From: Dietzia timorensis
Lineage (GTDB): Bacteria; Actinomycetota; Actinomycetes; Mycobacteriales; Mycobacteriaceae
Length of the DNA stretch: 64,000 nucleotides
Assembly: GCF_001659785.1 (NCBI RefSeq)
Contig: NZ_CP015961.1
Location: forward strand, 620,001 to 684,000
Direction of reading: 5' to 3'
Part shown: positions 42,141 to 62,855 of the stretch, piece by piece
Layout of the letters: each line of letters begins with the position of its first letter
Numbering within the stretch: position 1 is the first letter of the stretch
Program-made: the position numbers and the translations under genes
The notes under the pieces: generated by a model
What the model saw: the letters and a program-made list of their open reading frames with translations, nothing else
Database searches by the model: none
What the model was told of the DNA's origin: nothing

Positions 42141-43277
42141 CTACAAGCCATACGTCTTGCCGATGATGTCGCGCTGAATCTCGTTGGTGCCGCCGTAGAT
42201 CGACGACACCACGGCCTGGCGCAGCAGCCGCTCGATCCCGTACTCGGTCGCGTACCCGTATCCGCCCATCGACTGCATGCATTCGAGGGTCACCCACTTC
42301 GACAATTCTGTGGCCTTGAGCTTCGCCATCGACGCCTCGCGCGGGAACAGCGCGTCCGGATCGGCGTCTACCTTCTTCGCCACCGCGTACACGAGGAGTT
42401 TGGTCGCCTGGATCTCGGTCGCCATGTCCGCGATCCGGTGCCGCAGCACCTGGAACTTGCCGACGGGCCGGCCGAACTGCTCGCGCTCGGAGACGAACCG
42501 CAGGCACTCGTCGAAAGCTCGCTCGGCGACACCGAGCTGCATCGCCGCGAGAATGAGCCGCTCGATGTTGAGTCCGGACATGAGCTGCGCCCATCCGCCG
42601 TCGACCTCACCGATCACCGCGTCGGCGGGCAGCCGGACATCGTCGAAGTAGAGGTCATTGACCTCGCGGCCTCCCATCGTGTCGATACCGGAGATGCGCA
42701 GGCCCTCTATGTCGGCGGGGACGTCGAACATCGTGATCCCCTCGTGCTTCGACCCGGAAGAGGACGTGCGTGCGACGAGCAGGATGCGGTCGGCGAAGTG
42801 CGCATTCGAGCACCACGTCTTCTGCCCGTTGATCACCCAGTCGTCGCCGCTGCGTTCCGCCTTGCACCGCAGGGCGCCTACATCGGAACCGGCGCCCGGT
42901 TCGGACATCGAGATCGACAGCGTCCCGCCTTCGGCGAGGAGGCGGAGTGCGCGCTCGCGCTGTTCGGCGGATCCGAATTTCTTGTACGCCGCGCCCGCGA
43001 TGAGGGTCGGCCCGATGCTCCCGATCGGAGCGAGCCCGTACATGCTGCGCTCGAGCAGGATGCACATCTCCGTCGCGCCGGCGTCGGCACCGCCGAACTC
43101 CTCGGGCACCGTGATCCCGAGCCAACCGAGCTCGGCCATCTTCGAGTAGATCTCTTGACTGTGCGTTCCCCCGTCGGCGAGGGAACGCGACTTTTCGAAC
43201 GACCCGATTTCGCGTGTGCAAAATGCGTCGATCGATTCCGCGAAGGCGGTCTGCTCCGAACTAAAGGTGTCGAACAT
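42141..43277 (-). CDS. Acyl-CoA dehydrogenase
   Basis: This 378-residue flavoenzyme introduces the alpha-beta double bond in acyl-CoA, the first step of beta-oxidation. Visible family features: GWLGITVPEEFGGADAG at the N-terminal helical domain, ISMSEPGAGSDVGALRCKAERSGDDWVINGQKTWCSNA for FAD and substrate, and MQSMGGYGYATEYGIERLLRQAVVSSIYGGTNEIQRDII at the end. GAAAGTGAG precedes the ATG. The gene is read divergently from the aldehyde dehydrogenase, and the palindrome at 43354-43369 lies in the shared 114-bp promoter region, so both are probably controlled by the GntR protein. The substrate chain length is not evident. Confidence 0.93.
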   Translation of the reverse strand: MFDTFSSEQTAFAESIDAFCTREIGSFEKSRSLADGGTHSQEIYSKMAELGWLGITVPEEFGGADAGATEMCILLERSMYGLAPIGSIGPTLIAGAAYKKFGSAEQRERALRLLAEGGTLSISMSEPGAGSDVGALRCKAERSGDDWVINGQKTWCSNAHFADRILLVARTSSSGSKHEGITMFDVPADIEGLRISGIDTMGGREVNDLYFDDVRLPADAVIGEVDGGWAQLMSGLNIERLILAAMQLGVAERAFDECLRFVSEREQFGRPVGKFQVLRHRIADMATEIQATKLLVYAVAKKVDADPDALFPREASMAKLKATELSKWVTLECMQSMGGYGYATEYGIERLLRQAVVSSIYGGTNEIQRDIIGKTYGL

Positions 43278-43353
43278 CGATTACTCACTTTCCGTAGCGC
43301 ACTGTTGTATGGAGTGTTCCTGCGCTACTATGGCCCACATCACAACAAAGTAC

Positions 43354-43369
43354 ATCAAATATATTTGAT
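43354..43369. promoter_or_regulatory. Predicted GntR operator, box 1
   Basis: ATCAAATATATTTGAT is a perfect 16-bp palindrome in the divergent promoter region of the acyl-CoA dehydrogenase and aldehyde dehydrogenase genes, 22 bases before the ATG of the latter. It matches box 3 at 14 of 16 positions and shares its ATCA-n-AT half-site with the other boxes in this island. Confidence 0.65.
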
Positions 43370-43391
43370 CGGAAATGAAACGAGGGTATCA

Positions 43392-44897
43392 ATGAGCGTC
43401 CAACAGGACACGCCGAGCTCCGCCCCGGCGAGGACATTGCGCGTCTCCGACCCCCGCACCGGGGAGGTTGTCGGAGAATATCCGTATGACGGCGCCGCTG
43501 AGGTTCGCGCGGCCGTTGGGCGCGCCCGCGGCGCCTTGCGCTGGTGGACGACCCAGGGCGCCCGGGGGCGCAAGGAGTGGCTGCTCGAATTCAAGCGGCT
43601 CATTGCCGGGCGCGCGGAAGACCTCGCGGCGCTCATCTCGGCCGAGACCGGCAAGCCTCACGAGGACTCGATTCTGGAGGTGATGCTCGCGGTCGGCCAC
43701 CTAGAGTGGGCGGCGAAGAACGCGGGCAAGGTCCTCGGCCGCACGCGCGTCCCGTCCGGCGCGACCATGATCAACCAGGCCGCTTACCTGCAGTATCAGC
43801 CCTACGGCGTCGTCGGTGTCATCGGACCGTGGAACTATCCGCTCTTCACCCCCATGGGCTCGATCTCCTACGCGCTTGCCGCGGGGAACACCGTCGTGTT
43901 CAAGCCCAGCGAACTCACCCCCGGAGTGGGGGCGTGGCTCGCCGAGGCGTGGTGCTCGCTCGGCCCTTCGGGTCAGATCATCGAAGTGGTCACAGGGGAG
44001 GGCGAGACCGGCGCCGCACTCTGCGATTCCGGCGTCGACAAGATCGCGTTCACCGGATCTGCGGCGACGGGTAAGAAGGTCATGGCCGCCTGCGCAAAGA
44101 CGCTCACGCCCGTCGTGATCGAGGCAGGCGGCAAGGATGCGATGGTGGTCGCCGCCGATGCGGACCTCGACGCCGCAGCCGAGCAGGCTGCCTTCGGCGC
44201 CATGGGCAACGCCGGCCAAACCTGCGCAGGGGTCGAGAGGATCTACGTCGCCGAGGAGGCGTTCGACGCCTTCGTCGGCAAGTTCACCGCCATCGTCCGC
44301 TCTCTCGAGCCCGGCAATTCGGAAGAATCGAGCTACGGGCCGATGACGATGGAGTCCCAACGCGAGATAGTCTCCCGCCACATCGCAGACGCGCTCGACT
44401 CCGGCGGGCGCGCGGTCCTCGGCGGGCGCGATTCCGCGAGCGGCCGCGTGTGCGCGCCGGTCGTGCTCGTCGACGTTCCGGAGGAAAGCGCCGCGGTTCG
44501 CGAGGAAACCTTCGGACCGACCGTCGTCATAAATAGGGTTGCGGACCTGCACGAGGGGGTCGAGCGCGCCAACGGAACCTCCTACGGGCTCGGTGGCTCG
44601 ATCTTCACCGGCGACAAGACGGCGGGCCTCGAGGCCGCGGAAATGATGAACGCCGGCGGGGTCTCGGTCAATTCGTTCCTGTCCTTCGCGGCCATCCCGT
44701 CCCTGCCCTTCGGCGGCAGCGGCGACTCCGGCTTCGGCCGGATCCACGGCGCCGATGGGCTGCGCGAATTCGCCCGGCCGAAGGCGATCACCTCGCAGCG
44801 CTTCGCCCCGCCGCTCGCGCTGATGACGATGAATCGCAAGCCACGAGACGTCAAGGCGGTCAAGTGGCTGCTCGCCAACCTGCAATCCAGGGCATGA
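43392..44897 (+). CDS. Aldehyde dehydrogenase
   Basis: This 501-residue NAD(P)-dependent enzyme oxidises an aldehyde to the acid. Family motifs: YGVVGVIGPWNYPLFTP (binding site), FKPSELTP, FTGSAATGKKV (Rossmann G motif), VIEAGGKDAMVV with the general base Glu, and GNAGQTCAGVERIY with the catalytic Cys. It resembles the long-chain or succinate-semialdehyde-type group without a decisive feature. It precedes an MpaB-type oxygenase gene by 34 bp; such oxygenases cut double bonds to aldehydes, which this enzyme could take over. Box 1 lies immediately upstream. Confidence 0.94.
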   Translation: MSVQQDTPSSAPARTLRVSDPRTGEVVGEYPYDGAAEVRAAVGRARGALRWWTTQGARGRKEWLLEFKRLIAGRAEDLAALISAETGKPHEDSILEVMLAVGHLEWAAKNAGKVLGRTRVPSGATMINQAAYLQYQPYGVVGVIGPWNYPLFTPMGSISYALAAGNTVVFKPSELTPGVGAWLAEAWCSLGPSGQIIEVVTGEGETGAALCDSGVDKIAFTGSAATGKKVMAACAKTLTPVVIEAGGKDAMVVAADADLDAAAEQAAFGAMGNAGQTCAGVERIYVAEEAFDAFVGKFTAIVRSLEPGNSEESSYGPMTMESQREIVSRHIADALDSGGRAVLGGRDSASGRVCAPVVLVDVPEESAAVREETFGPTVVINRVADLHEGVERANGTSYGLGGSIFTGDKTAGLEAAEMMNAGGVSVNSFLSFAAIPSLPFGGSGDSGFGRIHGADGLREFARPKAITSQRFAPPLALMTMNRKPRDVKAVKWLLANLQSRA

Positions 44898-44931
44898 CGT
44901 CCCCTCGCCCCTTCACGACGGAGGTTTACCC

Positions 44932-45885
44932 ATGACGACGCACATCGATTCCCGCAAAGTCGATCCGATCGCCGAGGTGGCGGGACGAAGAATGCCGCTG
45001 CGCCGCCACCACTGGGTCGACGTCATCGACTCCCTCGACCCGGTCGCCGACGCGCCTACGATCCACAAGATCATGGCGGCCATCGAATTCCCGTGGGACT
45101 ACCAGCGCGCGCTCGAACTCGCCCTGTTCCGTACCTACTGCGTGCCGACGGTGTCCGATCTACTCGAGGCTACCGGCGAATTCAAACATCGGCCGCAGAA
45201 GCGCTACGACGACACCTCATTGCTCATGATCGAGCTCGTGCTCGGCGGCTACGAAGAGGGGAGAGGGCGGGATGCGCTGCGCATGATCAATCGCAACCAC
45301 CAGCGCTACGACATATCCAATGACGACATGCTGTACGTGCTCTCGACGTTCGTCTTCGACCCGCTCGACTGGATCGACGCCTACGGCTGGCGAAGGCTGC
45401 GCCCGAATGAACGGCTCGCGGCGTTCCACTTCTACCGCGAAGTGGGTATCCGCATGGCGATCAAGAACATCCCCACCGACATGGGCGAGTTCCGTAGCTG
45501 GCGCGACGAATACGAGGCCACGCATTTCGCCAAGACCTCCACGACCGTCGCCGTCGGCGGTTACACGATGGGCCTTTTCCAATCGTGGTTCCCCGCGCCC
45601 GTCCGGCCCGCTGTCAAAGAGGTGGTCAAGGCTCTCGTCGACGAAAACATGCGGATGGCCTTCGGTTACTCCACGCCGCCGAGGGCGTTGCGTGTGGTCG
45701 CCGAGGCCGGCCTGCGGGCGCGCGCCCGAGTGGAGCGGCTCATGCCCGCGCGAAGCGCGCCGATGGACATCGGGGACGGAAAGTATCCGACGTATCCGGA
45801 CTACGGCGCCGATACCGATATCGGTGGCATCGGCGCGTGTCCGTTTCATTCGGCGCGCAACGCGCCGAATGCGGACGCGGCCTGA
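44932..45885 (+). CDS. MpaB-type oxygenase (DUF2236 family), first copy
   Basis: This 317-residue protein belongs to the haem-containing MpaB/latex-clearing-protein superfamily (DUF2236, PF09995). MINRNHQRYDISNDDMLYVLSTFVFDPLDWIDAYGWRRL and FYREVGIRMAIKNIP match the MpaB branch closely; the conserved His and Tyr in NHQRY are candidate active-site or haem-proximal residues. The fungal MpaB cuts a prenyl side-chain double bond; bacterial Lcp cuts polyisoprene, both giving aldehydes. Unlike Lcp there is no Tat signal, so this enzyme is cytoplasmic. GAGG lies upstream of the ATG. It shares a transcript with the aldehyde dehydrogenase. Confidence 0.87.
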   Translation: MTTHIDSRKVDPIAEVAGRRMPLRRHHWVDVIDSLDPVADAPTIHKIMAAIEFPWDYQRALELALFRTYCVPTVSDLLEATGEFKHRPQKRYDDTSLLMIELVLGGYEEGRGRDALRMINRNHQRYDISNDDMLYVLSTFVFDPLDWIDAYGWRRLRPNERLAAFHFYREVGIRMAIKNIPTDMGEFRSWRDEYEATHFAKTSTTVAVGGYTMGLFQSWFPAPVRPAVKEVVKALVDENMRMAFGYSTPPRALRVVAEAGLRARARVERLMPARSAPMDIGDGKYPTYPDYGADTDIGGIGACPFHSARNAPNADAA

Positions 45886-45936
45886 TTCGGCGGTCCGGGG
45901 CGACTGCTTGCGAGTTCGGCGGAAGACGTCACACCA

Positions 45937-45952
45937 TGCACATATATGTGAT
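45937..45952. promoter_or_regulatory. Predicted GntR operator, box 2
   Basis: TGCACATATATGTGAT contains a perfect 12-bp palindrome (CACATATATGTG, 45939-45950) and matches box 1 at 12 of 16 positions. It lies 68 bases upstream of the thiolase start, in a 134-bp gap that becomes AT-rich towards 45965 and should hold the promoter of the long beta-oxidation/mce operon. Confidence 0.6.
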
Positions 45953-46019
45953 CTGATCTATTTAACCTTAAATGAGCATTGCGCTCCTCGGGCACGAGGA
46001 AGCGACGAAAGGAAGACCG

Positions 46020-47237
46020 ATGACCGGTCAAGATGCGTATATCTTCGACTCCGTTCGCACCCCGCGCGGGCGAGGCAAGGCCACCGGGTCGTTGCACACG
46101 ATCCCGCCGATCGAGCTCGCTGTCGGAGTCATCAACGGGCTACTCGATCGGAATCCGAACGTAGATCGGTCCCAGATCGAAGACATCGTCATGGGGATCG
46201 TCTCCCCGGTAGGGGAACAGGGCGCGGTACTTCCGCGTGTGGCGGCGCTTGCGGCGGGGCTTCCCGAATCCGTCGCCGGCGTCCAGGAAAATCGTTTCTG
46301 CGCGTCAGGCCTCGAGGCGGTCAACCTCGCGGCGCAAAAGGTTCGCTCCGGCTGGGAGGACTTGGTTCTTGCAGGCGGTGTCGAGTCGATGTCGCGGGTT
46401 CCGATGGGCTCCGACGGCGGCGCGTGGGCGGAGAACCCGTCGGTCAACTACCGCACGTCCTTCGTGCCGCAGGGCGTCGGAGCCGACCTCATAGCGACGA
46501 TTGAGGGGTTCGGCCGCAGGGACGTCGACGAATTCGCCGCCCGCTCGCAAGAGCTGGCCACAGCAGCCTGGGCCGATAACCGCTTCGGCGGTTCCATTCT
46601 CCCCGTCGCCGATTCGAACGGCGCGCTCGTGCTCGACCGAGACGAACACATCCGCTCCGGCACCACGGCCGACGATCTTGCGGGACTGCGCCCCTCGTTC
46701 GAGGCGCTCGGCCGAGAGGCCGGCTTCGATGCTGTTGCTCTACAAAAGTATTACGAGGTCGAGGCTATCGACCACGTGCACCACGCGGGCAACTCCTCGG
46801 GCATCGTCGACGGGGCGGCGCTCATGCTCATCGGCAGCGAGGAGGCCGGCACACGCAACGGTCTCACGCCGCGGGCGCGCATCGTCTCGGTCGCGGTCGT
46901 GGGATCGGAACCGACCATCATGCTCACCGGGCCGACTCCGGCGGCCGCCAAGGTTCTCGCCAAGGCCGGGCTCACCATCGACGACATCGACCTCTTCGAG
47001 GTCAATGAGGCCTTCGCCGCCGTCCCGATGAAGTTCTCGAAGGACACCGGGGCACCGATGGACAAGATCAACGTCAACGGGGGATCCATCGCCATGGGGC
47101 ATCCGCTCGGTGCCACCGGGGCGATGATCCTCGGCACCGCCCTGGACGAACTCGAACGCACCGATCGCAAACGCGCACTCGCCACCCTCTGCGTCGGCGC
47201 GGGCATGGGCATCGCGACCGTCATCGAACGCGTCTAG
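46020..47237 (+). CDS. Thiolase (acetyl-CoA C-acyltransferase)
   Basis: This 405-residue enzyme cleaves 3-ketoacyl-CoA with CoA, the last step of beta-oxidation. Active-site residues are clear: the nucleophile Cys in [18 protein letters not shown], the His in [16 protein letters not shown], and the second Cys in LCVGAGMG. Length is standard. The ATG at 46020 has AAAGGAAG upstream; a start at 45972 is also in frame but has no ribosome binding site. It opens a run of 12 co-directional genes ending with mceF at 60361, with gaps of at most 57 bp, so all are probably one operon. Confidence 0.95.
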
Positions 47238-47286
47238 CCGCGCCCTCACTCCCGTCCACGCCTCCCTTACCGCACCGGAGAAATTC

Positions 47287-49479
47287 ATGGCTACCAACAC
47301 CATCAACTACTCGATCGACGACGACGGCGTCGTCACCCTCGAGCTCGACGACCCGAACCAGAACGCCAACACCATGAACGAGAACTACGTTTCGTCCATG
47401 GAGAACGCCGTCGCCAAGATTGTCGACGAACACGAAAGCGGAAAGGTCTCCGGCGTGATCATCACGTCCGCGAAGAAGACATTTTTCGCAGGCGGCGATC
47501 TGCGCGACCTGCTGGCGATCCCCCTAGACGAGCCGGCGGCCGCACAGGACACGACGGACCGAGTCACAGCGCCGCTGCGCGAACTCGAGACGCTGGGAAT
47601 CCCCACGGTCGCCGCGATCGCCGGCTCCGCGCTCGGAGGCGGGCTGGAAATCGCGCTGTCCTGCCACCGCCGCATCGTCGTCGACAACCCGAAGATCCAG
47701 CTCGGTCTTCCCGAGGTCGGCCTCGGCCTCCTTCCCGGAGGCGGCGGCGTCGCCCGCTCGGTCCGGCTCCTCGGCGTCGAATCCGCACTGATGAACGTGC
47801 TCCTCGAGGGCAAGCGCCACCGCCCGGACTCCGCGTTGCAGGTCGGCATCGTCGACGACATCGTCGCGAGCGCAGAGGAGCTGATTCCCGCCGCGAAAAA
47901 ATGGATCGCCGAGAATCCGGAAAGCCGACAGCCATGGGACGAGAAGGGCTACACGATGCCCGGTGGTTCCCCGAAAGACCGGAGCCTGAGCTCCAAATTG
48001 CCGATGTTCCCGGCACTGCTGCGCAAGCAGCTCAAGGGCGCGCCATACCCCGCGCCGATCGCGATCATGTCCGCAGCCGTCGAGGGCGCGCGGCTCGGCT
48101 TCGACGATGCCCGCACCGTCGAACGCCGCTACTTCGGTCACGTCGTCGCAAGCCAGACCGCCAAGAACATGATCCGCGCGTTCTTCTTCGACCTGCAAAC
48201 CGCCAATGGTATGACGTCGCAGGCCGCGAAATCAGTGGACAAGCCCGTCGACAAGCTCACCGTACTCGGCGCCGGAATGATGGGCGCCGCCATCGCCTAC
48301 GTGTGCGCGAAGGCCGGCATCGACGTAGTCCTCAAGGACATCTCGATCGAGGCGGCGAACAAGGGCAAGGACTACTCGGAGAAGCTCGTCGACAAGTCCG
48401 TCTCTCGCGCATCGGGCGAGGCCGCGGAGGTCGCACGGAAGCGGGGCGCCGAGCTCCTCTCGCGCATCACCCCCACCGATGACCCGGCCGCGACTGCCGG
48501 CTCCCAGGCCGTCATCGAGGCCGTCTTCGAGGATCCCGACGTCAAGACCAAGGTCTTCGCCGAGATCGCCCCCTACATCGAGGCCGACGCGCTGCTGTGC
48601 TCGAACACCTCGACCCTCCCCATTACGGAACTGGCCAGAGGGATGGACCGCCCGGCAGACTTCATCGGACTCCACTTCTTCTCGCCCGTGGACAAGATGC
48701 CGCTCGTCGAGATCATCAAAGGCGAGCAGACCTCGGCGGAAACGCTGGACCGTGCGCTGTCGATCGTGGGCAGAATCTCCAAGACCCCGATCGTCGTCAA
48801 CGACTCCCGCGGGTTCTTCACCAGCAGGGTCATCGGCACCTTCACGAACGAGGGAGTGTCGATGCTCGGCGAGGGCATCCCCGCCTCCCAGATCGAACAA
48901 GCCTCCTCGCAGGCCGGGTATCCGGCGCCGGTGCTCTCGCTCATGGACGAGCTCACGCTCACCCTCCCGCGCAAGATCCGCGAGGAGACCAAGGCCGCGG
49001 CGCAGCGGGAGGGCAAGGGCTGGGTCGAAAGCGGCGCCGACGCCGTCATCGACCGAATGATCGACGAATTCGACCGCAAGGGCCGCTCGACCGGTGCCGG
49101 TTTCTACGAGTACTCGGACGGCAAGCGCACGCGACTGTGGCCCGGCTTGACGGAGAACTTCGGCGGTACGAGCGAGATCCCGATGCGCGACGCCATCGAC
49201 CGACTTCTGTTCATCGAAGCGATCGAGACGGTCAAGTGCCTCGACGAAGGCGTCCTCGAATCGACCACCGACGCGAACGTCGGCTCGATCCTCGGTATCG
49301 GCTATCCCGGCTGGACCGGTGGAGTTTCCCGATTCATCGATCAATATCCCGGCGGGCTGGCAGGATTCGTAGCACGTGCAGGCGAGCTCGCCGAGCGATA
49401 CGGCGAGCGATTCACACCGCCGCAGTCGCTTGTCGCGAAGGCGGACTCCGACGGGACCTACGAGGAGGTCCGGGCATGA
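47287..49479 (+). CDS. fadB: FadB-type enoyl-CoA hydratase/3-hydroxyacyl-CoA dehydrogenase
   Basis: This 730-residue bifunctional protein carries out hydration and NAD-dependent dehydrogenation in beta-oxidation. Residues ~1-190 are the crotonase domain (FFAGGDLRDLL; IAGSALGGGLEIALSCH; GLPEVGLGLLPGGGG with the catalytic Glu). Around residue 320 the dehydrogenase begins with KLTVLGAGMMGAAIAYV; LLCSNTSTLPITELA and GLHFFSPVDKMPLVEII supply the catalytic His, and the C-terminal helical domain follows. Length and order match mycobacterial FadB (about 715-720). It overlaps the next crotonase gene by four bases (ATGA). Confidence 0.95.
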   Translation: MATNTINYSIDDDGVVTLELDDPNQNANTMNENYVSSMENAVAKIVDEHESGKVSGVIITSAKKTFFAGGDLRDLLAIPLDEPAAAQDTTDRVTAPLRELETLGIPTVAAIAGSALGGGLEIALSCHRRIVVDNPKIQLGLPEVGLGLLPGGGGVARSVRLLGVESALMNVLLEGKRHRPDSALQVGIVDDIVASAEELIPAAKKWIAENPESRQPWDEKGYTMPGGSPKDRSLSSKLPMFPALLRKQLKGAPYPAPIAIMSAAVEGARLGFDDARTVERRYFGHVVASQTAKNMIRAFFFDLQTANGMTSQAAKSVDKPVDKLTVLGAGMMGAAIAYVCAKAGIDVVLKDISIEAANKGKDYSEKLVDKSVSRASGEAAEVARKRGAELLSRITPTDDPAATAGSQAVIEAVFEDPDVKTKVFAEIAPYIEADALLCSNTSTLPITELARGMDRPADFIGLHFFSPVDKMPLVEIIKGEQTSAETLDRALSIVGRISKTPIVVNDSRGFFTSRVIGTFTNEGVSMLGEGIPASQIEQASSQAGYPAPVLSLMDELTLTLPRKIREETKAAAQREGKGWVESGADAVIDRMIDEFDRKGRSTGAGFYEYSDGKRTRLWPGLTENFGGTSEIPMRDAIDRLLFIEAIETVKCLDEGVLESTTDANVGSILGIGYPGWTGGVSRFIDQYPGGLAGFVARAGELAERYGERFTPPQSLVAKADSDGTYEEVRA

Positions 49480-50285: not shown

Positions 50286-50315
50286 CCCAGCCACATTCGA
50301 AAGTAGGCACCGACG

Positions 50316-51911: not shown

Positions 51912-51968
51912 TGACGACCGAGTCCGTTCGTTGAGTCGCGCACACCCTCCGACTCGAGGTCCGCAACA

Positions 51969-54852: not shown

Positions 54853-55892
54853 GAGCCGCCGGTACCGCAGCTACTGTGAAGCTCCTCGTCTATTGCCTCA
54901 TCGGGGTCGTCGCGTCCGTGCTCGTGGTCAATAGCCTCCGCCCACCGCTCGGGTGGGGTGCTCACACCTACTCGGCGGAATTCACCGGAGCCGAGGGGTT
55001 GTCCCCTGGTAGCGACGTCGCCATCACGGGGGTCAATGTCGGTCGGGTCACGGACGTAAGCCGTATGACGGCGGAGGACGGTACCGTCACGGCGGTTGCC
55101 ACATTCGAGGTGTCGAGCGACCAACCGATACGGCGCGGTGTCCGTGCCTCCGTGCGGTTCGGGGACATGCTCGGCGTCAAGTATCTCTCGCTGGACCCTC
55201 CGGACGGACAGACGTCGGCGCTCTCGAACGAAGATCCGCTACCGGAGAACTCTCGAATTCCCATAGAGCGAACAACCGGGCCGCTCGACCTGACTGCCTT
55301 GGTCAATGGGTTCAAGCCGCTCTTCGAGTCGATTGATCCCAACCAGATCAACGCGCTCACCGAAACGATCATCGCCGCGTTTCAAGGCGAACCCGGTGCC
55401 CTCGATCGCATGCTGAGCCGGCTGGCGCTCGCGAGCAGGGACCTTGTCTCCCGGTCGGACGTGTATAGCCGGCTCATGTCGAACCTGGGCGATCTGGAAC
55501 GAGACCTCTACGACCGTCGTGACGACCTCGAGCGACTGATCGACGGTCTCGGAACCGTGTCCGAGGTGCTGGCCCGGAACGACGGTCGAGACCTCGCCGA
55601 CCTCATCGACAATGGCGATGCCACCGTCGCGACTCTCTCGTCCGCGATCGCCAGCAACGACCCGTCGATTCGCGCGAACATCTCCACGGCGCGGGTGGTC
55701 ACCGACGACTGGATACCGAACACCCGGGAGTTCGACGGTGCGCTGGGCCGAGCGGACGCGTTTTTCACCACGGCGACCAGGCTCACCGACTATGGCGGTT
55801 TCGTGAGCCTTTACATGTGCAACTTCACCGTTTCCACCGGCCCGGAGGAGTTCAATTTCTTCGGTGAACCGAATTCCGAGGTGTGCCAGTGA
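54849..55892 (+). CDS. mceB: MceB, Mce family protein
   Basis: This 347-residue protein has a membrane helix (about 9-27), an MCE domain (YSAEFTGAEGLSPGSDVAITGVNVGRVTDV to about residue 115), and a helical region with LMSNLGDLERDLYDRRDDLERLIDGLG. A Cys pair near the end (YMCNFTV and EVCQ at the C-terminus) recurs in MceC and others and may be structural. It starts with ATGA overlapping mceA, so it is translated in step with it. Confidence 0.93.
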   Translation: MRAAGTAATVKLLVYCLIGVVASVLVVNSLRPPLGWGAHTYSAEFTGAEGLSPGSDVAITGVNVGRVTDVSRMTAEDGTVTAVATFEVSSDQPIRRGVRASVRFGDMLGVKYLSLDPPDGQTSALSNEDPLPENSRIPIERTTGPLDLTALVNGFKPLFESIDPNQINALTETIIAAFQGEPGALDRMLSRLALASRDLVSRSDVYSRLMSNLGDLERDLYDRRDDLERLIDGLGTVSEVLARNDGRDLADLIDNGDATVATLSSAIASNDPSIRANISTARVVTDDWIPNTREFDGALGRADAFFTTATRLTDYGGFVSLYMCNFTVSTGPEEFNFFGEPNSEVCQ

Positions 55893-56935
55893 GACACATG
55901 ATTCGAGTACTCGCGGACAGTTTCTCCGACGTCGTTCGAGACCCACGTCGAAACAAGCGTGGCAATCCGATCGTGCTGGGCGCGATCTCCATCGTCCTGA
56001 TGGGAGTTCTCTTCGTGGTGAGCATCGGCGTGCCGGAACTGTATTACCAGCTGCGAACGGCCGAGTACCACGCCGCTTTCGATAACGCCGCCGGTCTGAA
56101 AGAGGGGGACCGGGTGCTTGTCGCAGGGGTTCCGAGCGGACGAGTTGCCGACCTCTCGATCGAGTCAGGTCACGCGGTGGTCACCTTCCGGCTCGATGAG
56201 CACCAGGAGCTGGGTGCGGGCACGAGCGCGCACATCGGTATCTCGTCCCTTCTCGGGAACAGGTTTCTCGAGGTCACTCCCGCTGGAACCGCAAACCTGG
56301 GCGACGAGCGACTGATCGAGATCAGTCGCACCTCCTCGCCGTACTCGTTGGACGACATCGACACCCAAGTCGAAGACCTCGCCGACAATCTCGACACCGA
56401 TTCACTCGCTACCTTGATCAACGATCTGGACCGAGTCCTGCCGCAAGACACGGAGGGCGCGGGAAGCAACCTCGGTGACATCTCCGCGGCGCTACGGATG
56501 CTGCGGCAGGAAGGAGACAACTTCGACCAGTTGGTGACGGCGACAAGGCAGGCCACGGGCGTCCTGGCGGCCCAGGAGCAGGGCGTGACCACGTTAAAGG
56601 ACCGGACTCTCGTCATCCTCCAGGTGCTTGCCGACCGGCGGGACCGGCTCATCGCGCTGATCGAAAATACGGAAGCGCTGGCAACGCAGCTGAATTCGCT
56701 ACTCGACGAGGAGCGACCGGAAATCGACGCACTGACCACCAACCTCACATCGATCACGGAGACGTACAAGCGAAATAAGGAGACGCTCGACTCCACGCTG
56801 ACACGCTTGGCGCCTGCGGTGAGAGGAGTCACCAACGCCACGGGCAACGGACCGTGGACCGAGGTGGCGGCGCCCTCAGGGCCGATTCCCGACGCACTTC
56901 TCTGCACGATCGGGGTGATGACCGGATGTCGTTAA
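55889..56935 (+). CDS. mceC: MceC, Mce family protein
   Basis: This 348-residue protein begins at GTG 55889, sharing GTGA with the mceB stop. It has a membrane helix at about 29-50, an MCE domain (EYHAAFDNAAGLKEGDRVLVAGVPSGRVADLSIESG onwards), and a helical region containing ALIENTEALATQLNSLLDEERPEID, a run with heptad-like spacing as expected of the central tube. A single Cys near the end (LLCTIGVMTGCR) pairs with the terminal one. The stop overlaps mceD by ten bases. Confidence 0.92.
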   Translation: MRHMIRVLADSFSDVVRDPRRNKRGNPIVLGAISIVLMGVLFVVSIGVPELYYQLRTAEYHAAFDNAAGLKEGDRVLVAGVPSGRVADLSIESGHAVVTFRLDEHQELGAGTSAHIGISSLLGNRFLEVTPAGTANLGDERLIEISRTSSPYSLDDIDTQVEDLADNLDTDSLATLINDLDRVLPQDTEGAGSNLGDISAALRMLRQEGDNFDQLVTATRQATGVLAAQEQGVTTLKDRTLVILQVLADRRDRLIALIENTEALATQLNSLLDEERPEIDALTTNLTSITETYKRNKETLDSTLTRLAPAVRGVTNATGNGPWTEVAAPSGPIPDALLCTIGVMTGCR

Positions 56936-58044
56936 CACGCACAACCGCGAAAACCGCCCGCCGGGTGGCACTCGGCCTCTTGGCTGTCGGAGTGCTGATC
57001 CTCGCGCTGATGACGGCGTATCGAATCACCGAAGGGCCTCCGCGGCTCGAGATCACGGCCGAGTTTGCGTCGACGAGCGGCGTCTTCGAAGGATCCCAGG
57101 TCCGGATGGTCGGCGTGACTGTGGGGCGCGTCGAAAACGTCGAGCCCGCCGGAGACATCGTGCGGGTGGTGATGTCCTTCGATCCCGACGTCGCGCTCCC
57201 GAGGGACGCGATGGCGCTGGTGATGACGCCCGCCGCGGTATCCGACCGATTCGTCGAGATCTCGCCGGCCTACGAGGGCGGGCAGGCGCTCGAATCGGGG
57301 GACGTCATCCCCGTGGAGCGCACACGCGCGCCGCTCGAGTTCGAGAACTTCGCGAGAAATCTCAACACGATCAGCGAATCGCTGGCCCCTAGCTCAGACG
57401 AGGCCGCTTCCGCGCTGTCCAAGGGGGCCGAATCCGTTGAAGGCATGGGGCCGGAACTCAACCAGGCCATTCGCGACCTCAATTCCGTCACTCGCGTCAC
57501 CGGAGACCGGTCCGGTGACATGCAGCAGATCGCAGAAGATCTCACGGTGATGCTGCGAGCCGTGGGAGGGCAGGACGAGTCGCTGTCCGAACTCATCGAC
57601 GCGCTGGACGGGGCCAGCGAAACCATCACGGCCGGACAGACCGACTACGGGGTGGCTACCAGGGAACTCGCGCAGTTACTCCGCGACATCGACAGGTTCG
57701 TCGAGGACAACGGGTTGGACCTCACCGAAAGCACGTCCGCCACCCTCGTCACCACCGAGATGCTGGCAAACCACGAGGACGATCTTGCCGAAATCATGGA
57801 CCTCTATCCATTGATGATGAGCAACTTCCCACGCGGAATCGGCGAAGACGGACGGGCCCGGATCCGGTTGAACATTTCCACTGATCTCGCATCCTTCGCC
57901 AAGGGTGAGGAATTCTGTTCGCACCAGCCGCTACCCATCTGCGCCGGCGCAGGAATTTCGAACCCGGTATCGCTTCCGCTATCGAGAACCGATCCGCTGA
58001 GCTTCATCGGACAGCTCGACGAGGCGATGAGGAGTGGGTCGTAG
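56926..58044 (+). CDS. mceD: MceD, Mce family protein
   Basis: This 372-residue protein has a membrane helix (about 14-33), an MCE domain (ITAEFASTSGVFEGSQVRMVGVTVGRVENVEP), and a helical region up to about 290. The ATG at 56926 lies inside the end of mceC. The longer in-frame extension to 56854 is the mceC sequence in another frame and is not used. ALVMTPAAVSDRFVEISP is the usual end of the MCE barrel. SHQPLPICAGAGI near the end gives one of the few Cys residues. Confidence 0.92.
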   Translation: MSLTRTTAKTARRVALGLLAVGVLILALMTAYRITEGPPRLEITAEFASTSGVFEGSQVRMVGVTVGRVENVEPAGDIVRVVMSFDPDVALPRDAMALVMTPAAVSDRFVEISPAYEGGQALESGDVIPVERTRAPLEFENFARNLNTISESLAPSSDEAASALSKGAESVEGMGPELNQAIRDLNSVTRVTGDRSGDMQQIAEDLTVMLRAVGGQDESLSELIDALDGASETITAGQTDYGVATRELAQLLRDIDRFVEDNGLDLTESTSATLVTTEMLANHEDDLAEIMDLYPLMMSNFPRGIGEDGRARIRLNISTDLASFAKGEEFCSHQPLPICAGAGISNPVSLPLSRTDPLSFIGQLDEAMRSGS

Positions 58045-59147
58045 TGACCGTATTCGGAACACCCACAGCGAAAGACAGGCGACCGAGAGACGTCGCAGAC
58101 CAGGGCCGCGGATGGGCGCGCCCGTTCATCGCGATTGCCGGGGTGGCAGTTCTCCTCGTCACGATCGTCGTCGCCATGCACAGCCCGTGGCTGTCGCTTC
58201 AAAAACTGCCGCTCGGTGTGCCCGCCGGTTCGGGCGCTATCGACGTACGCATGTATTTCGAACGCGCGGATCGGGTCAATACCGGCACAGAAGTACGGTA
58301 CGGCGAACTGATCATCGGCCGGGTCGCCTTGGTCGAGACGAATGGCGAAGAAGCAATCGTCACCACGACCCTCGATTCCGAACTGGCGGATATTCCCGGT
58401 GAGCCTTTCGCCGAGATCCGACAACCGACGGCGCTGGGCTCTCCATTCGTGGCGATCGAACCCCCACAGGATCCCGGAACTCAGGTTCTCAGCGACGGAG
58501 ACTCGATCCCGCGGTTTCGCACCGCCATGGGCCCCGACCTCGAGTCGAGTCTGGCGACCGTGGGGATGCTTCTCAATGGTTCCGGGATCGAGCAATTCAA
58601 GACAGTGATGACCGAGCTGTCGACGGCACTCGCAGGAAAGGGGCAGGCGCTCGACCGCGTCTCCGATCGAGGCGACCGCATGCTCGAGCTCTACGAGCTA
58701 CATCGCCAGGACATCAATGACACGATGGACACCCTGGGGCGCATCACCGAGGCCCTCCACAATCGGCGTGACCTCCTCAATAGGGGTATGGCAGTTTCTG
58801 CGGACGTGGTCACCGAAGTCGCCGAGAATCGCGACCAGCTCGACGACCTCATGGGCACGACGGTCACCCTGTCGGGACAACTTCGCATCTTCGTCGACTC
58901 GACGAGCGCGAACTACACGCCACTGCTCGACCACTCTCGAGCCCTCCTCGAAGACATGCAGTCGTTGGAGGGAGAGGCCGGTCCGATCCTGGTGAAACTC
59001 ACGGAGTTCGTCGACCTTTTCAACGACGCGTCCCCCGGCGACTATCTGGCCTTCGATGGCGCGCTCGATGTTCCGGGCTCCCTCGATTCGCTCTACTCCG
59101 GCGGCATGGCGCGCGGCGCGGAGCGCGGGGGTGGGGGAGAACCGTGA
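58044..59147 (+). CDS. mceE: MceE, Mce family protein without lipobox
   Basis: This 367-residue protein has a membrane helix at about 30-50, an MCE domain (DVRMYFERADRVNTGTEVRYGELIIGRVALVETN), and the long helical region. In M. tuberculosis MceE proteins are lipoproteins (Lpr type), but here no Cys is present in the N-terminal region and no lipobox can be drawn, so the protein should stay anchored by its helix. GTG 58044 overlaps the mceD stop (TAGTG). Assignment as MceE rests mainly on the fifth position in the gene order. Confidence 0.88.
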   Translation: MTVFGTPTAKDRRPRDVADQGRGWARPFIAIAGVAVLLVTIVVAMHSPWLSLQKLPLGVPAGSGAIDVRMYFERADRVNTGTEVRYGELIIGRVALVETNGEEAIVTTTLDSELADIPGEPFAEIRQPTALGSPFVAIEPPQDPGTQVLSDGDSIPRFRTAMGPDLESSLATVGMLLNGSGIEQFKTVMTELSTALAGKGQALDRVSDRGDRMLELYELHRQDINDTMDTLGRITEALHNRRDLLNRGMAVSADVVTEVAENRDQLDDLMGTTVTLSGQLRIFVDSTSANYTPLLDHSRALLEDMQSLEGEAGPILVKLTEFVDLFNDASPGDYLAFDGALDVPGSLDSLYSGGMARGAERGGGGEP

Positions 59148-60361
59148 ATCGACACATCCTCGTGCAAATCGCGATCTTCGCCGTCATCTCCGTGGTCGCG
59201 CTGGCCTACGGGTACCGCTACATCTCCAGCGACCTGGCGACGTACTCGAATTACGAACTTCACGCCGAACTCTCCGATGCCTCGGGCCTGGCCACCGGGA
59301 TGCGGGTCAATTACCGCGGCAGAGACGTCGGCGTGGTTTCCGATACGACAATCCGGGACCGAAAGATCGCGGTCGTGGTGCGCATCGACGGGGATGTTCG
59401 AATCCCTGTCGGGTCGAGTGCCCAGGTCACCTCGAGCACCGTCCTCGGCGACAAGTACCTGGACGTCCGGCCCACCACGGCGCAGGGCCCCATGCTGGAT
59501 GACGGCGGAGTCCTCGATACCCCGGACGAACTCGCTCCCGTGCCCCTCGAAGAACTCTTCGCCGACGTCTACACCTCGCTCTCCACCGTCGACACCGAGG
59601 CGCTCGAGTCGCTTGTCGGCGAAGTCTCCACGACCTTGGAGGGAACCGGACCCGAACTCGCCGGCATCATCGAGAACACCTCGACGCTCGCGAGAGCAGT
59701 GAACGAAAGTGCCCCGACTCTCAGCGGGCTCGTCGACGTCGGAGTGCCGGTCGCCCGCGACCTGGCTTCCAGGTCGGGGAAGGCAAGGCGCACAGTTACC
59801 GCGATGCGCGATGTGTCCGAACAATTTCGGAGAGAGGAACCCTCGTTGGTCTACCTTCTCGATGACAGCCCTGGTGCGATGGCCCGGATACAGAGGCTGC
59901 TCGACGACAACAGGAAGACCGGCGGTGCGCTTCTCGCGAACGGTGTCGTCGTCACCGACGTTCTCGCCTCCAGGAGGGAAGCACTTAGGGAGAGCTTCGT
60001 CGTCGGCCCGGAGGGTTTCCGCGCGCTGAGCGGAATCGTCAAAGACGGCCGAGCCGATTTCCAGCTTGTCGCCACTCAGGGCCCGGTTTGTGTGTATCCG
60101 ACCGAAAGACGTGAGGTCAACGACTCCAGTGAGCGCGAAGCACACCTCGATCTCTATTGCCCCATGGCCGAAAACCTGGGGATACGGGGAGCCGAGGCCG
60201 CTCCGCGGCCGGACGATCGCGGTCGCGCGAACTCCGTCCGGCCGGGGGACGTCACCGGACCGGAGTATGTGGAGGATCCGCTCTTCGTCCCCCTCGGCGA
60301 GGAAGTCGTCGAATCCTGGGAAAAGATGCTGCGCGATCCAGGGGCGTCCGCGGGAGGATGA
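59144..60361 (+). CDS. mceF: MceF, Mce family protein
   Basis: This 405-residue protein is the sixth Mce subunit. It has a membrane helix at about 6-27, an MCE domain (YELHAELSDASGLATGMRVNYRGRDVGVVSD with the core turn), and a helical part, then a C-terminal charged segment rich in Pro, Arg and Glu. GTG 59144 shares GTGA with the mceE stop. It ends the long operon; a 144-bp gap with box 3 and a promoter follows. The Cys in GPVCVYP and DLYCPM may form a disulphide. Confidence 0.92.
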   Translation: MNRHILVQIAIFAVISVVALAYGYRYISSDLATYSNYELHAELSDASGLATGMRVNYRGRDVGVVSDTTIRDRKIAVVVRIDGDVRIPVGSSAQVTSSTVLGDKYLDVRPTTAQGPMLDDGGVLDTPDELAPVPLEELFADVYTSLSTVDTEALESLVGEVSTTLEGTGPELAGIIENTSTLARAVNESAPTLSGLVDVGVPVARDLASRSGKARRTVTAMRDVSEQFRREEPSLVYLLDDSPGAMARIQRLLDDNRKTGGALLANGVVVTDVLASRREALRESFVVGPEGFRALSGIVKDGRADFQLVATQGPVCVYPTERREVNDSSEREAHLDLYCPMAENLGIRGAEAAPRPDDRGRANSVRPGDVTGPEYVEDPLFVPLGEEVVESWEKMLRDPGASAGG

Positions 60362-60392
60362 GCAGCCCAGAATTTGTGATCCATCTTACTTT

Positions 60393-60435
60393 TTGATTGT
60401 TCATGGTCTAAACTAAATAATCAGATATATGTGAT
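60393..60435 (+). promoter_or_regulatory. Promoter with predicted GntR operator, box 3
   Basis: TTGATT (60393-60398) and AATAAT (60416-60421), 17 bp apart, make a good -35/-10 pair. The box ATCAGATATATGTGAT (60420-60435) overlaps the -10 element and matches box 1 at 14 of 16 positions. Repressor bound there would block transcription of the Mce-associated gene and the second oxygenase. The region is strikingly AT-rich. Confidence 0.65.
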
Positions 60436-60505
60436 TTGTTGATGGCATGCGATGTGTGCCGCTTCGACGGGTCCACGTTTCCGGCGGAATCGAGGTGCTC
60501 CATTG

Positions 60506-61051
60506 GTGAAGCGAGAAGGTGCGGACTCTGCCCGCGGAGACGGCGAGGACGAAAAGGATTCGTCTCGCGGCGCGGAGAGGCGCGGAATCTCCCGACTTGC
60601 CCTTCCCGCGGCACTTGTCTTGGCGCTCGTGGCCGCGTGCGGATTCGGCTTGCTCTGGTGGCGGGAGCGGAGCGACCAACAGCTCCGAACGTCTGCCGAG
60701 GATGCTGCCACTCGAATGGTCACCGACCTCGCCACGTACAGCCACGAGGATTTTGAAGCGAACATCGCACGCGTCAAATCCTCTGCAACACCGGAATTCT
60801 CCGACAACTACACCGAGGTGGCCGAGTCCCTTCGCGAACTCGTCGTCAACGGAAAGGGCGAATCGACGGCCGAGATCGCACATGCCGCTGTCGAGTCGAT
60901 AAGCGACGAGGAGGCGGTGGTGCTCGTATTTCTGGACCAGCACATCCTCAACGTCGCCGTTCCCGATGGCCGACAGGACGTGAGCCGGATGGTCGTCACG
61001 CTCCAGCGCCACGACGGCGAATGGAAACTCCAGGACGCGCAGACGGTCTAA
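60506..61051 (+). CDS. Mce-associated membrane protein
   Basis: This 181-residue protein has an Arg/Asp/Glu-rich cytoplasmic N-terminus (1-37), one membrane helix (about 38-58, RLALPAALVLALVAACGFGLLWW), and an external domain with a long helix and an NTF2-like beta fold (ATRMVTDLATYSHEDFEANIARVKSSATPEF; VVLVFLDQHILNV). That is the plan of mycobacterial Mam proteins (Rv0178 or Rv1973 type), which stabilise Mce complexes. GTG at 60506 with GAGG about ten bases upstream is preferred to an ATG at 60452 with no ribosome binding site. It is coded apart from mceF by its own promoter. Confidence 0.82.
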   Translation: MKREGADSARGDGEDEKDSSRGAERRGISRLALPAALVLALVAACGFGLLWWRERSDQQLRTSAEDAATRMVTDLATYSHEDFEANIARVKSSATPEFSDNYTEVAESLRELVVNGKGESTAEIAHAAVESISDEEAVVLVFLDQHILNVAVPDGRQDVSRMVVTLQRHDGEWKLQDAQTV

Positions 61052-61083
61052 GCGCGCTCCATTCAGGAAAGGAAAAGACTGAC

Positions 61084-62007
61084 ATGGTCAATGTCCATGC
61101 TGAGCAGAGAAGATCCTCCGACTATTTCCGTTTCGATAAGGCGCAGGTCACGCACCGGCCACCTGCTTCCGCGGGGCCCAGGCCCGGCGAGTCCGGCCGA
61201 GCAGAAATGCCCAGCATCGCCGATGCGACCGACACCATAGGTGCGTTGGCGGGAGCTGCAAACGTCATCTTGCAGCTGTCCTGGCCCGCAATCGGCTGGG
61301 GAGTCCGGGAAAGCACTCAAGACGGGAACATCTACTATCACCCCATGCGTCGTGCGCGCACCACCTTTCAGTACCTTGCCGTGGCGACGACGGGCAGTGA
61401 TGAGGACAAAAGAAAATATCGCCGTGAGGTGACACGGATCCATTCACGCGTACGCTCCGGGGCGGGCAGTCCCGTTGAGTACGACGCGCTCGATCCAGGG
61501 CTGCAGTTGTGGGTCGCCGCGTGCCTCTATATCGGTTACGAAGACGCCTTCGAATGGCTCTACGGGAAGATGACCGACGATGAGCGGGAGCACTTTTACC
61601 AGTCGGCCCACGTCCTGGGAACCACTCTGCAAGTGTCCCGCGAGCAGTGGCCCGAAAGTCGCGACGCGTTCGACGACTACTGGTACGAAGGGGCAAAGCA
61701 GATTCGATTCGATCCACAGGTGCGCGAACACCTTTTGGGCATCGCAGCGCTGAGGATGTTGCCGCAACCGGCGACGATGCTCTTCGGCAAGGTGTTCAGC
61801 TGGATCACCTTCGGATTCTTGCACGCAGAATTTCGAGATGCTCTCGACGTCCCTTGGACGCCGAAAGACCAGCGCAGGTTCAACGCCACGCTCAAGGCTC
61901 TCGCTGCGCTGAATCGCACGCTGCCGCTGCCGATCCGCCAAATCGCCAATCGGGTGTTGCTTGTCGACCTGCGCCTGCGTGTGAAGCTCGGCAAGTCTCT
62001 GATGTAG
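61084..62007 (+). CDS. MpaB-type oxygenase (DUF2236 family), second copy
   Basis: This 307-residue protein is a second member of the DUF2236 superfamily, of a different branch from the first: TRIHSRVRSGAGSPVEYDALDPGLQLWVAACLYIGYEDAFEWLYG and FDDYWYEG are its signatures, with the His in IHSRV as a candidate active-site residue. A Ser/Pro-rich leader of ~50 residues precedes the core; no export signal is seen. GGAAAGGAAAAG lies 8-10 nt upstream of the ATG. Founding members are rubber oxygenase and MpaB; many mycobacterial relatives have no known substrate. It is co-transcribed with the Mce-associated gene and convergent with gntR. Confidence 0.87.
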   Translation: MVNVHAEQRRSSDYFRFDKAQVTHRPPASAGPRPGESGRAEMPSIADATDTIGALAGAANVILQLSWPAIGWGVRESTQDGNIYYHPMRRARTTFQYLAVATTGSDEDKRKYRREVTRIHSRVRSGAGSPVEYDALDPGLQLWVAACLYIGYEDAFEWLYGKMTDDEREHFYQSAHVLGTTLQVSREQWPESRDAFDDYWYEGAKQIRFDPQVREHLLGIAALRMLPQPATMLFGKVFSWITFGFLHAEFRDALDVPWTPKDQRRFNATLKALAALNRTLPLPIRQIANRVLLVDLRLRVKLGKSLM

Positions 62008-62031
62008 ACGTTCCGACGTCGCCGTCTCGGA

Positions 62032-62712
62032 TTAGCTCTCGTCCCACACCCCGGCCGACTCGAGGTGCTCGATGAGCCGCGCGCACGCGTCGGTGAACTG
62101 CGCCTCGAACGAGCGCAGCCCCTTCTCCGCGTCATTCTCGGTCGCCGCAGCGGCGAGATCCCGGTTGAGTGCCGTCTGTTCGGCGCACCATTCCGGATCT
62201 GCCGCGTAGACGTGAACGGGAATGTATCGGGACACCGTGGCGAGGATCCGCACCAGCTTGTCCGAGTTGGCGGCGAGGTTGACCGTCCGGTAGATCCGAT
62301 GCTGCGCCTGCACGACGGACGCGGTCGTGCCCGAAGAGGCAGCCTCAGCGAAATCTTCGACGAGCCGGTTCAGTTCCGCCCTGTCCGTGTCGTCGAAATT
62401 CTCGAACGCCCGGGAGATGAGGCGCCGCGCGAGTGTCAGCTGGATCCAGAAAATGTCCTCGATGTCCTGCCTGCTCAGCGGAGACACCGAATAGCCGCGC
62501 CGCGGCACGAGATCGACCAGACCCTCGCCCTTGAGGGTCAATAACGCCTCCCGCACCGGGGTCACGCTGACGCCGAGAGTGGTGGCTGTTTCGTCGAGGC
62601 GGATGAAGGTGCCCGGCCGAAGGTCGCCGGCCATGATCTGGTTGCCCACGAGATCGGCGATCTCCTCGGATAGCTGCGGTCGCCGGGCCATCCGGGCCGT
62701 GGTCGTTGTCAT
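62032..62712 (-). CDS. GntR family regulator, FCD (FadR-type)
   Basis: This 226-residue repressor has the winged helix-turn-helix at residues ~10-75 (LSEEIADLVGNQIMAGDLRPGTFIRLDETATTLGVSVTPVREALLTLKGEGLVDLVPRRGYSVSPLS) and a helical FCD ligand domain after it, with His residues (AQHRIYR, VHVY) that usually bind metal or the acid ligand. FadR-type members sense acyl-CoA or organic acids. AAGGAG lies upstream of the ATG at 62712. It closes the island and is convergent with the second oxygenase; M. tuberculosis Mce1R, also GntR/FCD, controls mce1. The AT-rich box upstream of its start suggests autoregulation. Confidence 0.92.
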   Translation of the reverse strand: MTTTTARMARRPQLSEEIADLVGNQIMAGDLRPGTFIRLDETATTLGVSVTPVREALLTLKGEGLVDLVPRRGYSVSPLSRQDIEDIFWIQLTLARRLISRAFENFDDTDRAELNRLVEDFAEAASSGTTASVVQAQHRIYRTVNLAANSDKLVRILATVSRYIPVHVYAADPEWCAEQTALNRDLAAAATENDAEKGLRSFEAQFTDACARLIEHLESAGVWDES

Positions 62713-62748
62713 GGCTACTCCTTGGCACTGTGCACGTGACGAATAACC

Positions 62749-62764
62749 TATCAAATATACGATA
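62749..62764. promoter_or_regulatory. Predicted GntR operator, box 4 (half-matching)
   Basis: TATCAAATATACGATA is an inverted repeat (TATC-N8-GATA) 37-52 bases upstream of the gntR start. Its left half ATCAAATATA is identical to that of box 1, the right half is diverged. It fits autoregulation of the regulator gene. Confidence 0.5.
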
Positions 62765-62855
62765 AATCGTCGGAAATGGACACTTGGCCATGCGTGGAGC
62801 CGGCAGTTCGGCCCGCCGTCCTTCGCCGGGAATCGTGCCCGCGCGGGTTGGGCAT

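Follow-up and report, generated by a model that had tools for sequence, protein, structure and literature searches.

A putative FCD-GntR operator in a Mce import, beta-oxidation and MpaB-type oxygenase island of Dietzia timorensis

Mce1R-type regulators and the boxes of the Dietzia island

Passages in three papers describe Mce1R (Rv0165c; MSMEG_0130 in M. smegmatis) as a negative regulator or repressor of mce1 (PMC2867952, PMC10517005, PMC9927256), and a statement in the first of these, from 2010, calls the Mce1R binding site 'not deciphered' (PMC2867952). No later report of such a site was found in the open-licence literature, so that a published site may have been missed, and the predicted-site table of a 2007 scan for FadR-type palindromes in M. 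smegmatis GntR proteins does not include MSMEG_0130, the Rv0165c orthologue (PMC2018728). Mce2R (Rv0586) and FadR are likewise FCD-type proteins of the same GntR subfamily that control mce or fatty-acid genes; as cited in a passage of PMC10843139, long-chain fatty acids affect Mce2R (experimental evidence) and fatty acids affect Mce1R (computational evidence). Here we analyze a 64,000-nucleotide stretch of Dietzia timorensis contig NZ_CP015961.1 (positions 620,001 to 684,000; hereafter, the window), which includes an island of about 20 kb where an FCD-type GntR repressor very probably acts through the putative operator TCACATCAnATATATnTGATGTGA to control Mce import, FadD5, beta-oxidation, MpaB-type oxygenases with an aldehyde dehydrogenase (ALDH), and its own gene.

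The window GntR belongs to the same FCD-GntR clade as the mycobacterial regulator located beside fadD5-yrbE-mce, and the mycobacterial gap between this regulator and fadD5 also contains a half-site or a full box. However, in the window, gntR is linked to fadD5-yrbE-mce at the far end of the mce run and is not divergent from fadD5; the run additionally includes genes for a thiolase, FadB, an acyl-CoA dehydrogenase (ACAD), the ALDH and two MpaB-type proteins; and the boxes include full palindromes, in contrast to the mycobacterial half-site. FadR-type operators (TnGTnnnACnA) differ from ATCAnATATATnTGAT. A search of the open-licence literature found no occurrence of the box letters. The regulator family and the Mce systems are already known, whereas the operator and the oxygenase-bearing regulon appear to be new.

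Matches to the search pattern ATCANATATATNTGAT at up to three mismatches occur in the window only at 43354, 45937 and 60420, compared to a mean of 0.10 matches in window shuffles. Boxes 1 and 3 are exact and box 2 has two mismatches, in agreement with the symmetric consensus that an earlier, sequence-only reading of this DNA had proposed for the three positions; the half-matching box it had placed before gntR is present as well, but starts at 62750, not 62749. The boxes, to which no strand is assigned, were scored with a matrix of 24 positions that had been trained on 38 contexts from other genomes, without the window:

Box 1, 43354..43369, no strand: perfect palindrome ATCAAATATATTTGAT, 39.8 bits
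Box 2, 45937..45952, no strand: TGCACATATATGTGAT, both mismatches at the left end, 21.7 bits
Box 3, 60420..60435, no strand: ATCAGATATATGTGAT, 23.6 bits
Box 4, 62750..62765, no strand: half-site ATCAAATATACGATAA, 3.9 bits, 37 bp before the gntR ATG

Box 1 lies between the divergent ACAD and ALDH genes (76 bp before the ACAD ATG and 22 bp before the ALDH ATG), box 2 precedes the run from thiolase to mceF, and the first two bases of box 3 overlap a sigma70-like −10 hexamer (TTGATT-17-AATAAT, 60393-60421). The gene contents previously assigned to the box-led units were verified with Pfam. These boxes are the four best matrix matches in the window, the next non-overlapping site scoring −4.1 bits. 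A Markov sequence of 3.6 Mb yielded no match of 10 bits or more and seven of 4 bits or more, so that box 4, which ranks fourth and combines one good half with one poor half, would not count alone; it is supported by the half-sites that recur before gntR in relatives.

In the complete genome (3,607,892 bases), four sites have at most two mismatches, of which three are inside the island and the fourth is ATCAGATATATATGGC, at 3,425,565; the reversed pattern has none. At up to three mismatches, there are 17 sites vs. 4 for the reversed control, so that single weak matches mean little. The boxes are rare by chance, as the sequence-only reading had stated, and few random matches occur elsewhere in the genome; its description of the regulon as self-contained does not always hold, as some relatives have further boxes far from gntR.

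Within the genus, 22 of 23 genomes contain a box at up to one mismatch. In 19 of the 21 listed Dietzia box loci (L067-L087), the box adjoins ACAD or ALDH, and in two, an MpaB-type gene. Eleven Dietzia islands were read whole; as they were chosen from genomes with a known box, the box between ACAD and ALDH is present by choice, and it is a perfect match in 11 of 11 (in L141, there is no ACAD match beside it). In all 7 islands with a thiolase gene, this gene is preceded by a box whose outer end is degenerate, as in box 2, and a box with an intact gene-side half precedes gntR in 10 of the 11. When 18 ACAD-ALDH regions were aligned (the window and 17 from other Dietzia), the box was the longest conserved non-coding block. 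Conservation, which had been suggested as a check on the boxes, was accordingly found for all of them except box 3, considered below. A second conserved stretch, TGTGgcccGTATCAC in Dietzia, was observed on the ACAD side of box 1 (43320-43350 in the window; 17 intergenic regions) and is perhaps an ACAD promoter or an extra half-site.

Association of the box with the regulator

Across the family, 135 of 301 genomes contain a box at up to one mismatch, with 0 to 2 copies each, and the reversed pattern occurs in none. A GntR orthologue (1e-30) was detected in 187 genomes: box and GntR are both present in 129, only the box in 6, only GntR in 58 and neither in 108, i.e. GntR accompanies 129 of the 135 genomes with a box vs. 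58 of the 166 without one. For a control FCD paralogue from the same D. timorensis genome, the corresponding numbers are 90, 45, 68 and 98 (90 of 135 vs. 68 of 166). The odds ratio is 40 for the GntR orthologue compared to 2.9 for the control, which supports the FCD-type GntR as the natural binder, as had been proposed from the window alone. A chance origin of the boxes was rejected on the basis of the shuffles, the reversed control, the scan of the 301 genomes and the matrix scan.

The boxes could, alternatively, be conserved AT-rich promoter elements (−10 regions) rather than operators, given that they are AT-rich in GC-rich DNA, lie before genes, and include TATATT, which resembles the −10 consensus. 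This explanation is extremely improbable and was rejected on symmetry and copy number: the two-fold symmetry extends into the outer TCAC/GTGA arms, which are absent from the search pattern, and the genomes carry at most two copies at up to one mismatch.

The GntR protein was found in 53 loci, some of them short (7 from Dietzia, 7 from Rhodococcus, 38 from Mycobacterium and 1 from Streptomyces). A site at up to three mismatches is present in 7/7 Dietzia loci, and the exact ATCACATATATGTGAT in 7/7 Rhodococcus loci; at the same threshold, none was found in the 38 mycobacterial loci or the single Streptomyces locus, some of which are short. Among the 75 listed sites, 50 are located 38-143 bp before an orthologue of the island ACAD. 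Among 56 of these listed sites, at least 36 lie within 25 kb of a GntR, which is a lower bound because not all second GntR copies were listed and some genomes are split into contigs. Other positions that were read are before ALDH, before ALDH-yrbE-mce, before gntR, between gntR and fadD, before a second MpaB-type gene and, in two genomes, before an ACAD pair (with a Pfam check on one pair member). In genus g8, the box precedes ACAD-gntR, and in genus g28, it is found both before ALDH-yrbE-mce and between gntR and fadD. The persistence of the box with the regulator or its targets across differing gene orders (g8, g28 and Mycobacterium G206) supports GntR as the binder.

The genome encodes six FCD matches in total, and one of the five other FCD proteins might bind the box instead, with the island GntR being a mere neighbour. 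The control paralogue, encoded at 3424499-3425161, is about 400 bp from the box-like ATCAGATATATATGGC, and a paralogue 4 kb beyond the island shares Val in the recognition helix. Nevertheless, binding by a different regulator appears quite improbable, considering that the control paralogue is only weakly linked with the box (the above odds ratio of 2.9 vs. 40 in the 301 genomes), that its helix reads SRGPLREAM, and that the box stays beside an island-type GntR in several gene orders. The gene 4 kb beyond the island was rejected as the binder because there is no box or island gene in its 10-kb stretch (L064).

Three other sequences were noted during these scans. ATCAGATATATATGGC (3425565, L065:5566), located about 400 bp on from the FCD-GntR gene C1:3424499-3425161, is 22 bp before a DUF4334/GXWXG gene, and that FCD-GntR is possibly a paralogue with a related operator. 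A perfect palindrome, ATCTGATATATCAGAT, lies about 75 bp before the matched part of a Mycobacterium FCD-GntR paralogue (L158:1410), which suggests sister regulators with shifted half-sites. ATCACATCTATGTGAT is common to four genomes of the Nocardia-like genus g22 (G022, G109, G096 and G244; L117:1883, L118:9376) and was rejected as part of the same regulon because no island gene is nearby in the two loci read, where its near flanks are identical.

The regulator clade and the mycobacterial mce1R locus

The window GntR matches the Pfam families GntR (50.3 bits, cut-off 27) and FCD (30.3 bits, cut-off 24.3), i.e. it is an FCD-type GntR of the FadR subfamily. A first, midpoint-rooted tree of 40 rows from chosen loci, in which two of the five FCD paralogues of the same genome gave a usable row, contains one group of 31 at 93/99 (not starred, and flagged for long branches), with the paralogues outside. 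This group comprises the window GntR, proteins from Dietzia, Rhodococcus, g5, g8, g9, g15 and g28, and the mycobacterial regulator beside fadD5-yrbE-mce. In a second tree, made without five long rows, 30 members of this group remain and are joined at 100/100, and the window GntR joins Dietzia at 99/94. The island GntR is an orthologue of Mce1R, the mycobacterial regulator that faces fadD5-yrbE-mce, and clusters with it (the identity of the mycobacterial gene as mce1R being taken from the gene order given in papers). The resemblance to Mce1R pointed out by the sequence-only reading is supported by both trees, with the correction that this is orthology and not just analogy.

In the clade rows listed, the recognition helix reads GVS[V/I/A]TPVREAL; at the Val/Ile/Ala position, Arg is found in three of the four FCD paralogues of the genome that could be read. 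A Val, Ile or Ala residue would fit an AT-rich site rather than TnGTnnnACnA, a fit that does not amount to proof. Asp and His metal-site residues mark the metal-binding (VanR-like) FCD proteins; FadR itself is not known to bind the metal. The FCD domain of the window GntR is without most of these residues, so that it is not filed as a metal-binding FCD protein, and their absence would fit an acyl-CoA-like ligand.

Mycobacterium G206, to which both trees give a basal position within the eight mycobacterial rows, has ATCAAATATCTTTGAT, the full palindrome with one mismatch, in the gap between the regulator and fadD5. In 36 further mycobacterial loci, strong conservation surrounds TTGATATTTGATAAAAC in this gap. 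Of these 36, 35 have the right half-site, ATATnTGAT, in the gap, and the 593,727 bases of the set contain no other copy. The set comprises all but two of the 38 mycobacterial loci, the two being those where gene matches were partial; in the one locus without the half-site (L027), just 179 bases precede the end of the contig, and these do not align. With TTGATATTTGATAAAAC as a 17-mer at up to three mismatches, 22 of 28 Mycobacterium genomes match, and in 16 of these 22, the match is within about 165 bp upstream of GntR (coordinates were compared by eye). Among the remainder, the GntR position is not listed for G232 and G215, the sole match in G290 is elsewhere, and G187, G246 and G284 have another variant of the 17-mer and a distant GntR only. 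TTGATATCTGATATATC recurs in the last three genomes, where the GntR match is distant, and in G099, which also has the normal site.

The island palindrome would account for one short conserved word in the mycobacterial gap between the regulator and fadD5. Tentatively, the palindrome may be the ancestral operator of the Mce1R clade, cut to a half-site in mycobacteria, and the ancestral regulon may have linked Mce import to the oxidative cleavage of C=C bonds and the beta-oxidation of a lipid of unsaturated or isoprenoid type, a scenario to which we give somewhat less than even chances; the full palindrome persists in one basal mycobacterial genome (G206). If true, this would hint at what Mce1-type systems first carried.

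Predicted regulation, gene content and substrate

FCD-GntR proteins are dimers that bind palindromes. In the mechanism that we propose, a GntR dimer would bind the palindromic operator (core ATCA[A/C]ATATAT[G/T]TGAT; full form TCAC-core-GTGA) and, at the island promoters, would repress by covering the start region; it would also occupy the half-site upstream of gntR. Release would be triggered by a lipid or acyl-CoA derived from the imported substrate and would switch on, together, the Mce importer with FadD5, beta-oxidation, and the two MpaB-type haem oxygenases with the ALDH. Repression is favoured because Mce1R is reported as a repressor and because box 3 overlaps the −10-like hexamer by two bases. 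That GntR acts at the boxes as an activator, or as both activator and repressor, is rather unlikely in view of these two points, even if the variable position of the box (38-143 bp before ACAD) and the lack of a −10/−35 match at boxes 1 and 2 would suit an activator.

The boxes, their conservation, their link with the regulator and the orthology are read from the sequences themselves; binding, repression rather than activation, the ligand and the substrate are what we infer. Several observations weigh against the proposed mechanism. Box 4 is a weak half-site. At the place of box 3 (between mceF and the small protein), no match of 6 bits or more was found in the six mce-bearing Dietzia islands (6/6), and sigma70 scans found no −10/−35-like hexamers at boxes 1, 2 and 4. 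The matrix was trained in part on Dietzia boxes between ACAD and ALDH, so that scores at that position are not independent. As many as 58 genomes, many of them Mycobacterium, have GntR without a box at up to one mismatch. The genomes of the family are related, so that Fisher values overstate the association, and the control paralogue also has a low Fisher value (1e-5); the contrast between the odds ratios is the fairer measure. The window GntR forms a long branch, flagged in both trees, and has IYR where the clade keeps one FCD His (fHR) well. Finally, Val also occurs in the recognition helix of the fourth readable FCD paralogue, whose gene is 4 kb beyond the island.

The island has a GC content of 0.642, vs. 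0.696 in the window to the left of it, and contains the following genes:

42141..43277, minus strand: ACAD (Pfam Acyl-CoA_dh_N/M/1)
43392..44897, plus strand: ALDH (Pfam Aldedh)
44932..45885, plus strand: MpaB/Lcp-domain protein 1 (MpaB1), likely haem oxygenase (Pfam MPAB_Lcp_cat; R-x3-T and His)
46020..47237, plus strand: thiolase (Pfam Thiolase_N/C)
47287..49479, plus strand: FadB/FadJ-type hydratase and 3-hydroxyacyl-CoA dehydrogenase (Pfam ECH_1, 3HCDH_N, 3HCDH)
49476..50285, plus strand: enoyl-CoA hydratase (Pfam ECH_1; ATG 49476 overlaps the preceding stop)
50316..51911, plus strand: acyl-CoA ligase of the FadD5 kind (Pfam AMP-binding)
51969..53653, plus strand: yrbEA and yrbEB, MlaE permeases (Pfam MlaE twice)
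53653..60361, plus strand: mceA to mceF, starts approximate (Pfam MlaD and Mce4_CUP1 in six open reading frames)
60452..61051, plus strand: Mce-associated-type protein (NCBIfam Rv0361_Cterm, weak, 24.3 bits, cut-off 37)
61021..62007, plus strand: MpaB/Lcp-domain protein 2 (MpaB2), likely haem oxygenase (Pfam MPAB_Lcp_cat, 2.9e-59; R-x3-T and His)
62032..62712, minus strand: FCD-type GntR regulator, Mce1R clade (Pfam GntR and FCD; trees)

The make-up of a Mce transporter, i.e. two YrbE permeases and six Mce proteins, is present; the Mce-associated-type protein has no Pfam match. The acyl-CoA ligase scores 727.8 bits against the NCBIfam FadD5 model, 5 bits under the cut-off of 733, and the best NCBIfam match of the ALDH, succinic semialdehyde dehydrogenase, is also under its cut-off. 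ACAD is 78-82% identical among the matched genomes of the genus. For the thiolase, the start at 46020 is preferred over the first ATG (45972) because AGGAAG precedes it.

Both island MpaB proteins contain R-x3-T followed by a His about 30 residues on, and R-x3-T and His are present in 19/19 aligned MpaB sequences; MpaB1 and MpaB2 are likely haem oxygenases. A search of solved structures with MpaB2 gave no real relative at E ≤1. The MpaB-family haem oxygenases, such as Gordonia Nro1, and Lcp have the same Pfam domain (DUF2236/Lcp), and the spacing of the motif is that of Arg164, Thr168 and His198 as given for Lcp in passages of two papers (PMC5522427, PMC12724181). According to a passage of the latter, Nro1 attacks nitrile rubber, producing aldehyde-bearing oligomers (PMC12724181). 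Unlike Nro1 and Lcp, the window MpaB-type proteins are encoded beside a lipid importer, an ALDH and a regulator.

The combination of oxygenase, ALDH, CoA ligase and beta-oxidation genes in one box-marked set suggests import of a lipid with C=C bonds (unsaturated or isoprenoid). Such a lipid would be oxidatively cleaved to an aldehyde, oxidised to an acid, activated and beta-oxidised, a plausible route to acetyl-CoA; this scheme is the least certain part of the proposal. In the likely regulon, putative C=C-cleaving oxygenases are joined with Mce import, which hints at the substrate. There is, however, a substantial chance, if a little short of even, that what the pathway breaks down is a steroid or ordinary saturated fatty acids, and that the MpaB-type proteins have another role: a passage of one paper implicates Mce1 in fatty-acid uptake (PMC10517005), and the C=C substrate is deduced from the gene set. 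Against this alternative, the box repeatedly has MpaB-type genes and ALDH next to it, as seen in loci of Dietzia, Rhodococcus, g5 and g9. Also against it, three Dietzia genomes have a second MpaB-type gene that is preceded by a box (Pfam check in one); it is far from gntR in G139 and G102 and on a separate contig in the draft G226.

The island is flanked on the left by panC- and panD-type genes and on the right by the beginning of a class II (D, K, N) tRNA synthetase gene, read as lysS, which places it between panD and the lysS-like gene. Four other Dietzia genomes (G003, G150, G102 and G139) carry panC and gntR on one long contig, with hundreds of kilobases between the two; the island has therefore probably been relocated as a whole.

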